A DNA stretch of 64,000 nt, taken from contig JAHHHO010000005.1 of the NCBI GenBank assembly GCA_019359315.1, positions 62,001-126,000 on the forward strand. The letters are read 5' to 3'. Shown here piece after piece: positions 39,718 to 45,950 of this stretch. Positions within the stretch are counted from its first letter, which is position 1. Each line of letters opens with the position of its first letter. Position numbers and translations under genes: made by a program. The notes beneath the pieces were generated by a model that was not told where the DNA came from, searched no databases, and saw only the letters and a list, made by a program, of their open reading frames with translations. The DNA comes from Myxacorys californica WJT36-NPBG1. Lineage in GTDB: Bacteria; Cyanobacteriota; Cyanobacteriia; Leptolyngbyales; Leptolyngbyaceae.

Positions 39718-39860
39718 CGCGTTGAGTAGGGATCAAAAGACAAGGTTCAACTGGGGAACTGAGAGGAGGTTCTCGTGTTGAAGATTTGAGCATTGAGGGT
39801 GGTTGAAGTTCGTAAGATAGGCGCTATAGTCGGAGTCAATCACCCAATGCTCTCTTGATC

Positions 39861-40361
39861 ATGGATCTCTATCTCATTCGCCACGGCTTAGCTGGGCAAC
39901 ACGGCGACTATGCTAACGATGCAGAGCGTCCCCTCACGGATGAAGGCAAGCGCAAGACTCGGCAGGTGGCGAAGCAGTTGCACCAGTTGGGGTTGAAGTT
40001 TGACTTGATTTTGACTAGCCCTCTGATGCGAGCTAAACAGACGGCTGAGATTCTTCAAGCCGAGGGACTGAGCAAGCACCTAGAGATCGCAGATTGTTTA
40101 GCGCCTGGAGGCGAGCTTCAGCAGTGGTTAGACTGGTTGGCAACGTGGAGAGCGCCTAACAAAGTTCTAGCGTTAGTGGGGCACGAGCCAAATTTGAGTA
40201 ATTGGGCAGAAATTTTGGTGTGGGGCAATGCTCATGGAAGCTTAGTGCTTAAAAAAGCAGGCGCGATCGCGGTTACGATTCCAGATTCGGGAACCCCGAT
40301 CGCGACGAGCCGGCTTTTTTGGTTAACACCGCCTCGCTTCTTAGGCAGTCATAAGCTGTAA
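39861..40361 (+). CDS. sixA: phosphohistidine phosphatase SixA
   Basis: This 166-residue histidine phosphatase removes phosphate from phosphohistidine, for example on histidine phosphotransfer domains. The catalytic LIRHG is at residues 5-9, LTSPLMRAKQTAEIL is conserved, and the second His is in LVGHEPNLSNW. ATG 39861 gives the canonical MDLYLIRHG start; an in-frame TTG two codons earlier is less likely. It lies upstream of the tandem MarR gene on the same strand, with a nearly 200-base spacer. Confidence 0.93.
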   Translation: MDLYLIRHGLAGQHGDYANDAERPLTDEGKRKTRQVAKQLHQLGLKFDLILTSPLMRAKQTAEILQAEGLSKHLEIADCLAPGGELQQWLDWLATWRAPNKVLALVGHEPNLSNWAEILVWGNAHGSLVLKKAGAIAVTIPDSGTPIATSRLFWLTPPRFLGSHKL

Positions 40362-40382: not shown

Positions 40383-40429
40383 GCAGAATTTAGTGGCTCA
40401 GTTTAATAGAATTCCGTGCTAAATTCTGC
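40383..40429. repeat. 11-bp inverted repeat upstream of the tandem MarR gene
   Basis: GCAGAATTTAG (40383-40393) and CTAAATTCTGC (40419-40429) form perfect arms separated by 25 bases. A second, weaker pair, CAGGCTC (40462-40468) and GAGCCTG (40503-40509), lies between it and the ATG at 40558. Either could be operators for the MarR product; the first could instead be a hairpin after sixA. Confidence 0.5.
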
Positions 40430-40557: not shown

Positions 40558-41493
40558 ATGGTTCCTTCCCACACTGAACTTCAGGTTTCTAAAGATTCGC
40601 TTCGTGTGCTTGCACCGCATGGGATTGGCTATCGGCTGAAATTGCTTTCCCAACTGCTGGGTCGGCGATTTCAAGAGAAGCTTGATCCCTTTGGGCTGAC
40701 GCCGTTTCATTGGGTGGTATTGTGCTGCTTGTGGCAAGAAGATGGGCTAGCAACGTCAAGCATTGGCGATCGGTTGCAGCAGGTGGGTGGAACCTTGACT
40801 GGAGTGCTCGATCGCATGGCAGAACGCGATCTGATTCGGCGAGAGCGCGATGCTCAAGACCGTCGAGTGTGGCGAATTTGGCTCACCAGTGCGGGACGGC
40901 GATTAGAAGACTTGTTGCCACCCCTTGGTGTTGAGATTCGAGAGACGGCGTTAAAAGGACTCTCTTACGCTGAGCGAGAACAGTTCTCCAACATCATCGA
41001 TCGCATTATTGTCAACCTTCAACCCAATCCATCTGATCCGCCTACTACATCCTCGCCGCTTGGCTGGCAGTCGATTCTTGCGCCTTATAACATGGGCTAC
41101 CGCATTAAACTGCTGGCTCAGTTGGGGATGAGAAAGTTTCAAGAACTGCTCGATCCCTTCGGGCTGACGCCGTTTCATTGGGTAGTGTTGTGCTGTTTGT
41201 GGCAAGAAGACGGGCTGGCAACCTCAAGCATTGGAGAAAAACTACAGCAGGTGGGCGGAACCTTGACCGGAGTGCTCGATCGCATGGCAGAACGCGATCT
41301 AATTCGGCGGGAACGCGATGCCGAAGATCGTCGAATCTGGCGAATTTGGCTCACCGATGAAGGCAGAGCGCTGATAGATGACTTGCCGCTGCTCGCACTG
41401 AGCATTCAAAACTGTATGGTGCAAGAAATTTCGGCAGAAGACCAAGCGAAGTTATCGGGTTGGGTAAATCAGGCGATCGCAAACCTAAGTTGA
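40558..41493 (+). CDS. tandem-duplicated MarR transcriptional regulator (two MarR domains in one chain)
   Basis: The 311-residue product consists of two complete MarR winged-helix domains. The halves are offset by 468 bases (156 codons). The core from LDPFGLTPFHWVV to WRIWLT is 69 residues long and differs at only four positions; the flanking dimerisation helices differ more. Each half has the winged-helix region GGTLTGVLDRMAERDL and the wing RRERDA.DRR. Both keep a CysCys pair (VLCCLW). Normal MarR proteins are about 150 residues and dimerise, so this may fold as a single-chain pseudo-dimer. Linker QPNPSDPPTTSSPLG joins them. Its 3' end overlaps eda by 9 bases, tail to tail. Confidence 0.93.
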   Translation: MVPSHTELQVSKDSLRVLAPHGIGYRLKLLSQLLGRRFQEKLDPFGLTPFHWVVLCCLWQEDGLATSSIGDRLQQVGGTLTGVLDRMAERDLIRRERDAQDRRVWRIWLTSAGRRLEDLLPPLGVEIRETALKGLSYAEREQFSNIIDRIIVNLQPNPSDPPTTSSPLGWQSILAPYNMGYRIKLLAQLGMRKFQELLDPFGLTPFHWVVLCCLWQEDGLATSSIGEKLQQVGGTLTGVLDRMAERDLIRRERDAEDRRIWRIWLTDEGRALIDDLPLLALSIQNCMVQEISAEDQAKLSGWVNQAIANLS

Positions 41494-42180
41494 GGCGACA
41501 GCAGAGGCAGTTGTCGAAGTTTCTTCTAGCGTTTGAATCAGAGTGCGGGCTTGATGTTGAATGAGTGACCAATCGCAAATTGCAGTTCCTCTAGAGTTGC
41601 GCTGATTGCTCATGGCTCCTTTCGGAAATAATCCGCTTGACAGTCCAACCGCGATCGCGCCTGCTTCGATCAAAGCTTTGGCATTGGTCGGCGTCACTCC
41701 TCCGGTTGGAATGAGCGGAACATCTCCAAGCGGTTGTTGCAGGACCCGAATATAGTCTGCACCGCCCACGGCTTGTACGGGAAAAACCTTAACGCTACTT
41801 GCTCCTGCTTGCCAAGCCGTAATGATTTCAGTCGGCGTCAGCGCACCTGGAATCATTGGAATTTCTTTAGCAACAGCAAGCCCAATCAAGTCGAGATTGG
41901 TATGGGGAGAAAAGGCAAATTCTGCACCCGCCGCGATCGCGTCTTTTAGCTGAGCCGTGGTTAGAATTGTGCCTGTTCCGATCGTACAAGTGGGTAGCTC
42001 AATTCGCAGTTGAGAAATTAGATCTGCCGCGCGATCGCTATCCCAAGTAATTTCAATTAGTTTCATTCCCCCTGCTGCAACTGCTGTTGCCATCTGTTGC
42101 CCCAAACAAAATTGGGGAGCGCGAATCACTGCGATCGCACGATGTTGTTGAGCTAATTTCAACCAAGTTTGGGAGTCCAT
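41485..42180 (-). CDS. eda: KDPG/KHG aldolase
   Basis: This aldolase cleaves 2-keto-3-deoxy-6-phosphogluconate to pyruvate and glyceraldehyde 3-phosphate in the Entner-Doudoroff pathway, which is present in cyanobacteria. The TIM barrel shows the catalytic Glu43 in LIEITW, PGALTPTEI, and Schiff-base Lys131 in ASSVKVFPV. PTGGVTPTNA binds phosphate. ATG 42180 gives 231 residues; a TTG five codons upstream is less likely. Tail-to-tail overlap with the MarR gene could let transcription interfere between them. Confidence 0.92.
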   Translation of the reverse strand: MDSQTWLKLAQQHRAIAVIRAPQFCLGQQMATAVAAGGMKLIEITWDSDRAADLISQLRIELPTCTIGTGTILTTAQLKDAIAAGAEFAFSPHTNLDLIGLAVAKEIPMIPGALTPTEIITAWQAGASSVKVFPVQAVGGADYIRVLQQPLGDVPLIPTGGVTPTNAKALIEAGAIAVGLSSGLFPKGAMSNQRNSRGTAICDWSLIQHQARTLIQTLEETSTTASAVAST

Positions 42181-42382
42181 TTGGTTAACGTTCAATTAAG
42201 AGAAACTGAGTTGAACTTAATATCTCTTTACTCAAAACCTTTGCTTTTTTGCTAAAAGAACAAAACACAATTACAACTCATTCATAAGAAGTAGAGACAG
42301 GTTAGGTCGTTAGAAAGAGGGAGCCTTCTAATTGAATTTATACACTTAGGCTGTAGTGACGAAACTTTAGGAGATAACACAT

Positions 42383-43423
42383 ATGGCTTTACATAAGATT
42401 AAAGACTTTGATCCTGATTATCGTAATCATTTTGATGGTGACGATGTAAAAGATCTAGATTTATATGCTGGTGATGAAAAAATTGGTTCCGTAAACGATG
42501 TCTTAGTAGATGAAAACGGCCAATTCCGCTATTTAATTATCAATACTGGTGCATGGATATTTGGTAAAAAAGTAATGCTGCCGATCGGCCGTGCGAGAAT
42601 TGATTATAGCGCTCGTCGCGTTTATGCCGATGGCTTGACTAGGCAGCAAGTAGAGGCTCTACCAGAATTCACGGATGATTTGAAGATCGATTACGATCAC
42701 GAAGAGCAGGTTCGCGGCGTGTATCGCTCTTCTGGTACGACCGGCACGACTGGCATGACCGGAATGACTGGTATGACTGGAGCAGCTGGCACGACCGAAG
42801 CTTCTTTGGATGCTTCCGCTCCTCTAAATTCCCCGACTCCGGTTGAAGGAATGCCCTATACCGGTTCCTCGATGGGTGCTACGACAGGTGCTTTCGCCGC
42901 AGATACTAACTCAGGTGCTTTCGCCGCAGATACTAACCTTGGTCGTGACTATGATCGCGATACCTATAACTACGACGAACACGATAGAGACTTATTCGAC
43001 TTAGGTCGTCAGGACGACCGCATTCGGTTGTATCAAGAGCGCTTGATTGCTAGCAAGACTCGTCAGAAGACCGGCGAAGTTACTGTAGGCAAGCATGTTG
43101 AAACTGAGACGGCTCGCGTTGATGTGCCCGTTGAGAAAGAGCGTGTTGTGATTGAGCGGGTTAACGCGACCGATACAACTGCTGTTACTCCAGGTGAAGC
43201 TACGTTCACCGGAGGCGAAGTCGCTCGCGTAGAAGTCTACGAAGAGACGCCTGATATCCATAAGGAAGCGTTCGTTCGGGAAGAAGTGCGCGTGAAGAAG
43301 GTTGTGGATCAAGACACTGTGACTGCCGAAGACGAAGTCCGTCGCGAAGAACTGGACATCGATACTCAAGGTCGTCCGATCATCGACAACGATCGTACCA
43401 ACGTCGATCGCGCTAGTCGGTAG
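42383..43423 (+). CDS. PRC-barrel and DUF2382 domain protein
   Basis: The 346-residue protein has an N-terminal PRC-barrel (MALHKIKDFDPDYRNHF to about residue 110), a repetitive linker and a C-terminal DUF2382 (YsnF/AvaK) domain starting IRLYQERLIASKTRQKTGEV. The linker has short Thr-Gly-Met/Thr repeats and a 27-base direct duplication encoding GAFAADTN twice. Such proteins are abundant soluble stress or akinete-associated proteins; the biochemical role is unknown. AGGAG lies 9 bases before the ATG. A second DUF2382 gene follows after a terminator. Confidence 0.88.
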   Translation: MALHKIKDFDPDYRNHFDGDDVKDLDLYAGDEKIGSVNDVLVDENGQFRYLIINTGAWIFGKKVMLPIGRARIDYSARRVYADGLTRQQVEALPEFTDDLKIDYDHEEQVRGVYRSSGTTGTTGMTGMTGMTGAAGTTEASLDASAPLNSPTPVEGMPYTGSSMGATTGAFAADTNSGAFAADTNLGRDYDRDTYNYDEHDRDLFDLGRQDDRIRLYQERLIASKTRQKTGEVTVGKHVETETARVDVPVEKERVVIERVNATDTTAVTPGEATFTGGEVARVEVYEETPDIHKEAFVREEVRVKKVVDQDTVTAEDEVRREELDIDTQGRPIIDNDRTNVDRASR

Positions 43424-43475
43424 AACTGAAAGCTTTGCTTTTAGGCTGCACTTAATTAGTAATTAGGTAAAAGTG

Positions 43476-43508
43476 GGCAGAGCTATTTCAAGTAGCTCTG
43501 CCTCTTTT
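43476..43508 (+). terminator. intrinsic terminator after the PRC-barrel gene
   Basis: GGCAGAGCTA (43476-43485) pairs with TAGCTCTGCC (43493-43502), with a 7-base loop and TCTTTT following. It shows that the next DUF2382 gene has its own promoter or depends on read-through. Confidence 0.85.
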
Positions 43509-43538
43509 GAAAGAGAAGAAGTGATTTACTACAGGAAA

Positions 43539-44531
43539 ATGGCTGGCAAAATGTATACGGAATCGTCACAATATTCCGATAGCAATCCGCTTGAAGATCG
43601 GCTGGATAATCTTAGACAAAAGTTAATTGGATTTGAAGTAGTTAATCAACAAAATGAACTTGTTGGAATTGTTGAGAATCTGATTATTGATGCAACGCAA
43701 CATCTAAATTTTGTTTTGACCCGTTCTCTGTCTGATCCTCTACAAAAAAGCTTTTTATTAGAAAGTAGATTGGTCGATCGTGTAAATCCAAAATCTCGCG
43801 CACTATTAGTTAGTTTAAGTCCTGCTGGTCTTGCAAATTTGCCTGTATATCCTATGCAATCCGACGCCTCAAAAAGGGATCTAATCCAGTCAGACAATCG
43901 CCTTAGTTCTCGTCATTCGCCAGCAGACCCGCAAGCGATTAGCGCAGAGCGCAACTCCGCAGGAACCGCTTCTCCCATGACGCAGAGCGCAACGGGCGCA
44001 ATTCCGCAGGAACTGCTTCCTCCTAAGGTGATTGAACAAGATGTGGTTGAACAAGGTGTGGTTGAACAGCAAGATGTCCTTAGACAGAACGTTGTTCAGG
44101 AAGAAACCATTCGCCTGTTAGAAGAACGGCTTAAGGTTAATTACCAGAAACAGAAGGTTGGCGAAGTCATTGTCCGTAAGGAAATCGAGACTCGCATGAT
44201 TCAAGTTCCGGTGCGTCGCGAGAAATTGATTGTTGAGCAGGTTGGCGATTCCCCTCGGAGGCTCGCGGAGATTGACTTAGGACAGGGCGAGATTGAGGGC
44301 TTAGAACTCCTTGGCTCAGAAGCGACTTCAGAACGTACCATTGCTTCTGGTTCTACGGCGCAGGGTTCTATCGTGAAAGGCGAAGTTTCGTCTCCTCGAA
44401 CTGCGGCTTGGTTGTTGGATGCGATCGCGCGTCAATCTAATCACGGTTGCAAGCGGATTCGTATTGAAATTGAGCTAGACAATCCGAGTCATCAGGAAAC
44501 TTATCAAAGCTGGTTAGATCGTTGTCGCTAA
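43539..44531 (+). CDS. PRC-barrel-like and DUF2382 protein, divergent paralogue
   Basis: The product is about 330 residues. The N-terminal part (LIGFEVVNQQNELVGIVENLIIDA) is a PRC-barrel-like domain. A variable linker follows, then a DUF2382 domain (IRLLEERLKVNYQKQKVGEVIVRKEIETRMIQVPVRREKLIVEQV). The C-terminal region (AWLLDAIARQSNHGCKRIRIEIELDN) is extra. It resembles the upstream gene in domain order but not closely in sequence. ATG 43539 is my choice; GTG 43521 and ATG 43551 are alternatives, and a GTG at 43473 lies in the upstream terminator. The linker contains two copies of the dispersed-repeat core (43941, 43981). Confidence 0.8.
   Translation: MAGKMYTESSQYSDSNPLEDRLDNLRQKLIGFEVVNQQNELVGIVENLIIDATQHLNFVLTRSLSDPLQKSFLLESRLVDRVNPKSRALLVSLSPAGLANLPVYPMQSDASKRDLIQSDNRLSSRHSPADPQAISAERNSAGTASPMTQSATGAIPQELLPPKVIEQDVVEQGVVEQQDVLRQNVVQEETIRLLEERLKVNYQKQKVGEVIVRKEIETRMIQVPVRREKLIVEQVGDSPRRLAEIDLGQGEIEGLELLGSEATSERTIASGSTAQGSIVKGEVSSPRTAAWLLDAIARQSNHGCKRIRIEIELDNPSHQETYQSWLDRCR
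43941..44020 (+). repeat. two copies of a dispersed repeat core inside the DUF2382 linker
   Basis: CGCAGAGCGCAAC occurs at 43943-43955 and again at 43981-43993, each followed within 15 bases by TTCCGCAGGAAC or CTCCGCAGGAAC. Both are in frame (AERNSAG and TQSATGA). The same core appears at 15053 and in the 49019 element. Confidence 0.6.
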
Positions 44532-44582: not shown

Positions 44583-44669
44583 ATGACTGAGATTCAGATT
44601 TCGGTGGAAGATGATGGCGCGATCGTAGAGAAAACGCAAACGGATAGCGATCGAGTCCAAAAGAAATGA
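44583..44669 (+). CDS. possible 28-aa ORF before the 21-bp repeat block
   Basis: MTEIQISVEDDGAIVEKTQ is followed by a charged tail. The stop TGA overlaps the ATG of the repeat-encoded frame (ATGA at 44666-44669), a coupling arrangement. There is no convincing ribosome-binding site before either start, and no family is recognised. It could equally be a remnant of the end of the upstream gene. Confidence 0.25.
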   Translation: MTEIQISVEDDGAIVEKTQTDSDRVQKK

Positions 44670-44686
44670 TCCGCGAATGTTACAAC

Positions 44687-44875
44687 GTTCGTAACCAAAG
44701 TCGTAATGTTCGCAACGAAAGTCGTAACGTTCGTTACGAAGGTCGTAACATTCGTGACCAAGGTCGTAATGTTCGTGACCAAAGTCGTAACATTCGTGAC
44801 CAAGGTCGTAATTTTTGTAACGAACGCTACGATAATCGTGACCAAACCTATCGCAATCGTGACCAAACCTGCAAA
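44687..44875 (+). repeat. 21-bp minisatellite, nine units
   Basis: Nine consecutive 21-base units start at 44687, 44708, 44729, 44750, 44771, 44792, 44813, 44834 and 44855. The first six are close (pattern NTTCGTNACCAANGTCGTAA), the last three diverged. The period is seven codons, so one plus frame reads a heptad such as NVRNQSR/NIRDQGR and another reads TFVTKVV. The minus strand is also open in this block. It lies between the second DUF2382 gene and ribF. Confidence 0.9.
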
Positions 44876-44999
44876 CCTTATCAACCTGCTCAAGCGACCT
44901 GCAAAATCTTCCTCGCAAAATATACCTTTAAAGTCTTTGTCTCGTTTCTTTCCGTATCTTTCTAGATTTTCCGAATCGAGATGTGTCAAAATGTGAAGT

Positions 45000-45950
45000 G
45001 TGTGGATCACTTCTTCCCCCTCTACAGCCCTAACACCAACTGCTGTTGCCCTAGGAAACTTCGATGGCATTCATCTAGGGCATCGTCAGGTCATTTCGCC
45101 TGTTCTTGGCACTGGCACTGGCAACCGCCCCACCGTCGTCACCTTTTCTCCCCATCCCACTGAATTCTTTACCGGGAAACCGCGATCACTGCTGACACCC
45201 CTCGACGAAAAAGCCGCTTGCCTCGAAGCAATGGGAGCTGAGCAACTCGTGATGTTGCCCTTTACCCAAGAACTGGCAGCCCTGACCCCGCAGCAGTTTG
45301 TCGAAGAGATCTTAGTGCAACACATGCAGGCGCAGCACGTCAGCGTCGGCGTAGACTTTCGGTTTGGCTGCAAGCGACTCGGCACAGCAGAAGATCTGAG
45401 CGCGATCGCGGCCACCTTCGGCGTCAGCACCACGATCGTTCCTCTCCTCACCTTTCACGGCAAGCGCATCAGTAGCTCCTCCATTCGGGGAGCGCTTCTC
45501 AGTGGAGACGTGAAAACCGCGAATCGAATGTTAGGTCGCTCCTACCGTTTAGTCGGGGAAGTGGTCAAGGGACAACAGCTTGGACGCACCATCGGCTTTC
45601 CAACCGCAAACCTACAACTGCCAGCCAACAAGCTAGTTCCTCGACAAGGCGTGTACGGCGTCAGAGTTTCTGAGCCAGGAAAAGAGCCATTGCCAGGAAA
45701 AGAGCTATTGGGCGTGATGAATATTGGCAACCGTCCGACCGTAAACGGTTTGGCACAGACCATTGAAGTTCATCTACTCGATTGGACAGGAGACTTATAC
45801 GGGCACACGCTCACCGTTGAGCTAGAAGAATTCATTCGCCCTGAGCAGAAGTTTGCTTCCCTCGAAGAGTTACAAGCTCAAATTAGCGCAGATTGCGAGA
45901 TTGCAAGAACGACGTTAGCCGTTTCCTCGTACCGCGCCAATCAGATTTAG
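45000..45950 (+). CDS. ribF: bifunctional riboflavin kinase/FAD synthetase
   Basis: RibF phosphorylates riboflavin to FMN and adenylylates FMN to FAD. The N-terminal nucleotidyltransferase has VALGNFDGIHLGHRQVI, GVDFRFGCKR and a SSSSIRGALLSGDV segment near its end. The C-terminal kinase shows GRTIGFPTANLQLP and MNIGNRPTV, then EVHLLDW. The start is GTG 45000 with no good Shine-Dalgarno site; the domain begins about 15 residues later. Length is 316 residues. A downstream MoxR gene starts 96 bases later. Confidence 0.94.
   Translation: MWITSSPSTALTPTAVALGNFDGIHLGHRQVISPVLGTGTGNRPTVVTFSPHPTEFFTGKPRSLLTPLDEKAACLEAMGAEQLVMLPFTQELAALTPQQFVEEILVQHMQAQHVSVGVDFRFGCKRLGTAEDLSAIAATFGVSTTIVPLLTFHGKRISSSSIRGALLSGDVKTANRMLGRSYRLVGEVVKGQQLGRTIGFPTANLQLPANKLVPRQGVYGVRVSEPGKEPLPGKELLGVMNIGNRPTVNGLAQTIEVHLLDWTGDLYGHTLTVELEEFIRPEQKFASLEELQAQISADCEIARTTLAVSSYRANQI

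Follow-up and report, generated by a model that had tools for sequence, protein, structure and literature searches.

Regulators of the MarR family usually consist of single-domain chains of about 150 residues that form homodimers, a form not required for membership of the family, and in homodimeric regulators identical subunits read symmetric operators. OhrR, HpaR, SlyA, MepR and other MarR repressors are homodimers of single-domain chains. The protein analysed here, encoded in a 64,000-nucleotide stretch of the cyanobacterium Myxacorys californica WJT36-NPBG1 (contig JAHHHO010000005.1, positions 62,001 to 126,000, hereafter the window), shares their domain fold and family but carries two domains per chain. 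Among cyanobacterial regulators, ChlR of Synechocystis is a MarR-type homodimer with [4Fe-4S] on C18/C25 and binds TTMCC-N3/4-GGWAA (PMC13421787). It resembles the present family in being cyanobacterial and MarR-type and in having a palindromic site (PMC13421787), but that site differs from the AATAnTAnGnnnnCTAAGTAA of the family described below.

The closest described relative in architecture is SarS (SarH1) of S. aureus, a member of the SarA family, which has been described as non-dimeric and larger, being built of two homologous halves whose folds resemble SarR and MarR (PMC10715151). Like the cyanobacterial protein, SarS (PDB 1p4x) joins two homologous winged-helix domains in a single chain, and with this precedent a single-chain, two-domain MarR protein is already a known kind. 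SarS is a Firmicutes protein of the SarA/MarR branch, whereas the cyanobacterial fusion lies inside a group of single-domain MarR orthologues and at the locus that these occupy; it is therefore independent of SarS, to which it is 15% identical, and the two do not descend from a common two-domain protein. A literature search for cyanobacterial tandem MarR fusions or for intragenic conversion in regulators returned nothing relevant, which is weak evidence given that few subscription journals were covered. What appears to be new is intragenic conversion limited to the core of an old fusion whose interfaces have diverged, with unfused orthologues at the same locus. The explanation that we consider probable as a whole is a single in-place fusion that would have produced a single-chain pseudo-dimer, with conversion of the core keeping its two DNA readers alike.

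A two-domain MarR protein in one reading frame

The initial annotation described two full MarR copies in one frame of 311 residues, offset by 468 bases, and our analysis bears this out. The frame has no internal stop, the Pfam MarR profile (PF01047) matches two stretches of the protein above its curated cut-off (E 2e-27, 95.1 bits versus a cut-off of 24.6), and the GYR motifs of the two halves are spaced by 156 residues (468 bp). Helices flanking the winged helix on its N- and C-terminal sides, another hallmark of the family, are predicted in the AlphaFold model. The protein falls into none of the NCBIfam equivalogs (OhrR, HpaR, SlyA, MarR and others): the best score was 111.6 bits against the 200 of OhrR, and the remaining scores were all below their own cut-offs. 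The features of the locus are listed in Table 1.

Table 1. Features of the fused gene and its surroundings (positions in the window)
Feature	Position	Strand	Evidence or remark
Histidine phosphatase, SixA type	39855..40361	+	Syntenic neighbour in fused and single-domain genomes
Best remnant of the family promoter site, ATAAAGTAAGTGCCCTCGATAA	40529..40550	+	Not significant; 19/300 shuffles as good
Fused tandem-MarR gene	40558..41493	+	311 aa, ATG to TGA; 12 orthologues with the same architecture
D1 N-terminal flank (helix alpha1, residues 16-46)	40603..40695	+	AlphaFold helix 23-45; flank tree
D1 winged-helix core (residues 47-110), converted tract	40696..40887	+	Half-versus-half comparison, core tree, AU test
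D1 C-terminal flank (dimerisation helices, residues 111-154)	40888..41019	+	Near single-domain relatives; flank tree, AlphaFold
Linker, 17 residues	41020..41070	+	Low model confidence; matches the single-domain N-terminal tail by position
D2 N-terminal flank (residues 172-202)	41071..41163	+	Alignment, flank tree, AlphaFold
D2 winged-helix core (residues 203-266), converted tract	41164..41355	+	Half-versus-half comparison, core tree, AU test
D2 C-terminal flank (residues 267-310), most diverged	41356..41487	+	Alignment, flank tree, AlphaFold
KDPG/KHG aldolase	41485..42195	-	Convergent; 9 bp overlap with the fusion gene

The two halves align without gaps over 139 residues. Within the winged-helix core, which we defined as the 64 codons LTPFHW..WRIWLT, 60 of 64 residues are identical and 4 differ, in agreement with the 65 of 69 first counted given a slightly different boundary, and the outer-helix flanks are indeed the more diverged part (42 of 75 residues different). 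These flanks include helix alpha1 of D1, which from knowledge of the MarR family we take to be a dimerisation helix. The Cys-Cys pair noted at the outset is present in both halves (C56/C57 and C212/C213), but it does not set this gene apart: all aligned single-domain relatives carry it without variation, so that it is ancestral and no part of the oddity of the fusion. Directly after the motif DRM, at residue 88 (40819-40821) and at its D2 equivalent, residue 244 (41287-41289), nearly all single-domain relatives have Glu (DRMEERG) and every fused protein has Ala, Ser or Cys in both halves, a co-ordinated change just behind the recognition helix.

Fused and single-domain orthologues share one locus

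In an order-level search the two-domain form was found in 13 of 42 genomes, belonging to four genera of the window's family (g1, g4, g6 and g8), so that in 13 species the usual single-domain chain is replaced by one with two domains. The fusion is intact in 12 species besides that of the window, all of the same family, with named records from Myxacorys almedinensis (same genus, 86% identical to the window's protein), Phormidesmis priestleyi, Phormidium tanganyikae and Leptolyngbya sp. Prado105, and some of the fused genes come from near-complete assemblies of 4-5 contigs (G006, G029 and G033). A class-level search of 390 genomes detected the regulator in 100 at E <= 1e-40 and found no additional fusions; long open frames in two genomes of other families (G281 and G186) were rejected as further cases, each containing one domain.

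Single-domain orthologues do exist, and within the family they occupy the same locus. They adjoin sixA (for example in G011, G014 and G028), occur also in Nostoc, Calothrix and Kamptonema, and are about 155 aa long and approximately 60-75% identical to one half of the fused protein; they have one domain where the fused form has two, and like it they keep the Cys-Cys pair. The gene order HNH - DHH - sixA - marR is common to fused and single-domain genomes of the family, and in several of its genera the single-domain forms follow the DHH and sixA genes. Of the fused loci that were checked, only those of Myxacorys and G008 have the aldolase gene beside the fusion.

The fusion is old and has a single origin

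In a tree built from the flanks, all D1 sequences are separated from all D2 sequences with 100/100 support over 13 species. The duplication thus predates at least four genera and, judged by this phylogeny, is old and not recent; the same tree shows phylogenetically that the fusion arose once. The sixA tree, in which the fused genomes fall on one side of a branch (92/94), agrees with one origin followed by vertical descent. The linker is about as long as the N-terminal tail of the single-domain protein, which suggests an in-place tandem duplication followed by read-through.

The initial annotation had raised a recent duplication as one of two ways to account for the likeness of the halves. Recent duplications that occurred independently in each species, or else an error of assembly, would indeed give core DNA as similar between halves as it is, but recent copies should be alike along their full length and the observed likeness is in the core only. 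The flank separation common to 13 species refutes this alternative, and the architecture turns up again in many independent assemblies, the near-complete G029, G006 and G033 among them; its presence in the assemblies of 12 other species excludes an artefact. We regard the chance that either holds as negligible.

Gene conversion is confined to the winged-helix core

Gene conversion, the other possibility first raised, accounts for the core. Mean synonymous difference in the core is 0.377 within a gene versus 0.573 between species (permutation p 5e-5), while in the flanks, which serve as an internal control for codon usage and show no effect, the two values are 0.599 and 0.598 (p 0.5). The core tree groups both halves by species or genus and mixes D1 and D2 as if at random, with 9 label changes against a shuffled mean of 9.0, and a tree in which the D1 cores are forced together is rejected (delta lnL 120, AU p 0.0007). 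The process is uneven among species: the two cores of Myxacorys almedinensis are identical in all 64 residues and differ at 1 of 59 synonymous codons, and those of G033 differ at 34 of 56 synonymous codons, indicating little recent conversion. These codon and tree comparisons show that the 64-codon core has been repeatedly homogenised by intragenic gene conversion that is confined to the core.

One could instead invoke selection alone, purifying or convergent, acting on the residues that read DNA with no conversion at all, since the core protein is strongly conserved between species too. Selection of this kind does not predict homogenisation at synonymous codons, restricted to the core, with the flanks as control; nor does it fit the single synonymous difference among 59 in Myxacorys almedinensis, when the genes neighbouring the fusion have drifted to approximately 0.40 synonymous difference between that species and the window's. 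The synonymous codons and the AU test, which rejects independent descent of the D1 and D2 cores, together lead us to reject selection alone, and we find it very improbable.

Predicted structure of the fused chain

We predicted the structure of the window's full chain from 22 sequences with AlphaFold (pLDDT 83, pTM 0.78). The model contains two complete MarR domains, with helices around each winged helix, joined by a linker of low confidence at about residues 165-168. The full-chain prediction thus yielded a defined two-domain fold, in support of the proposal for this locus, but only in part, because a second model, built for a different fused orthologue from an alignment of only 8 sequences, reached a pTM of 0.52 and speaks neither for nor against the predicted intramolecular arrangement, which therefore depends on one model. 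In a fold search the best E-value was that of S. aureus SarS (1p4x; 275 columns, TM 0.45, rmsd 9.4, 15% identity), which was also the sole match spanning most of the chain among the 50 matches listed. From the first model and the SarS precedent, a single-chain pseudo-dimer is plausible, and the most likely arrangement is a chain predicted to fold as an intramolecular MarR dimer that would place both readers on one operator; the looseness of the SarS superposition (TM 0.45, rmsd 9.4) counts against it.

That looseness, together with the uncertain second model, leaves some room for chains that dimerise between molecules (D1-D1, D2-D2 or crosswise) into a protein with four heads that would bridge two operators through a DNA loop, with conversion keeping four readers alike. 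Each half retains a complete set of dimer helices, as such pairing would need. The first AlphaFold model, however, is a confident whole-chain fold without a partner, and a pattern search found no second site near the gene; the 100/100 divergence of the D1 and D2 flanks, as if they faced each other, also speaks for pairing within the chain, although homotypic pairing allows it as well. We judge bridging unlikely, the intramolecular dimer remaining the preferred arrangement.

The ancestral promoter site and its fate

A AATAnTAnGnnnnCTAAGTAA-like site is present near the start codon in 70 of 70 single-domain upstream regions of a training set drawn mostly from Nostocales (L041-L113). Applied to 15 held-out single-domain promoters, the matrix derived from it found strong sites in 12, with 0 of 300 shuffles as good, and it correlates with its own reverse complement at 0.61 in one register, which makes the site an imperfect palindrome. 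Since the site lies near the start codon, the ancestral single-domain gene was likely self-regulating, presumably by repression of its own promoter.

The conserved site was not found in most fused genomes. Two fused Phormidesmis genes keep it as TATTAAGTGTTCTAAGTA (16 bits, 0/300 shuffles) and G008 has a weak match, but the matrix search did not find it upstream of the window's gene, in Myxacorys or in g6. These promoter comparisons indicate that the operator was changed, moved or lost in part of the fused lineage. That the ancestral site is unrecognisable in the window's genome and in g6 counts against an explanation built on a symmetric operator. A regulon search with the site across 11 genomes gave matches no commoner than those of a reversed control pattern, own promoter aside, and none in the window's genome.

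The absence of the ancestral site from the window's genome and g6 would also suit a division of roles, in which one half reads DNA and the other senses a ligand or partner, the protein being a functional heterodimer on an asymmetric operator. The D2 outer helices evolve faster than those of D1 (amino-acid difference between species 0.385 versus 0.292), and MarR proteins have their ligand pocket between reader and outer helices. Neither core, however, has lost any reader residue and both undergo active homogenisation, an argument for DNA reading by both, and we think a split of functions quite improbable.

The sequence between sixA and the fusion gene contains an inverted repeat at 40383-40429, with perfectly matching 11-nt arms (GCAGAATTTAG / CTAAATTCTGC) separated by 25 nt. 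We rejected it as an operator: it has no counterpart among the upstream inverted repeats of Myxacorys or G008.

A proposed path from homodimer to single chain

A model that joins these observations starts from a single-domain MarR gene adjoining sixA, probably self-regulating, which would have undergone a single in-place duplication and read-through fusion before the split of four genera in one cyanobacterial family. The two sets of outer helices would then pack together within one chain as a single-chain pseudo-dimer, so that both winged helices face a single operator of approximate symmetry. In such a pseudo-dimer the outer helices of D1 and D2 may owe their divergence to the asymmetric pair that they now form. 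Conversion repeatedly makes the two cores alike, and the simplest reason would be a need for both to recognise the same half-site. A further proposal, whose chances we see as evenly balanced, is that the DNA-reading module is precisely where conversion operates or where selection retains it; recombination would then maintain operator symmetry and leave the interface free to become asymmetric, and the fused lineage would also have changed the operator itself.

After a fusion each half is free to drift, and here conversion keeps the readers alike across four genera while the interface diverges. As the locus provides single-domain and fused orthologues that match each other, the transition from homodimer to single chain becomes directly testable, as does the question whether conversion stops the decay of operator symmetry.

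Other features near the fusion

Adjoining the fusion is a second tandem duplication, a pair of adjacent genes (42383-43423 and 43473-44531) that each encode a PRC-barrel and a DUF2382; both are present in Myxacorys. Further downstream, an imperfect 21-bp/63-bp tandem repeat array lies between two genes at 44684-44846; it has no Pfam match and is open in several frames (e.g. ORF 44594-45070, minus strand).
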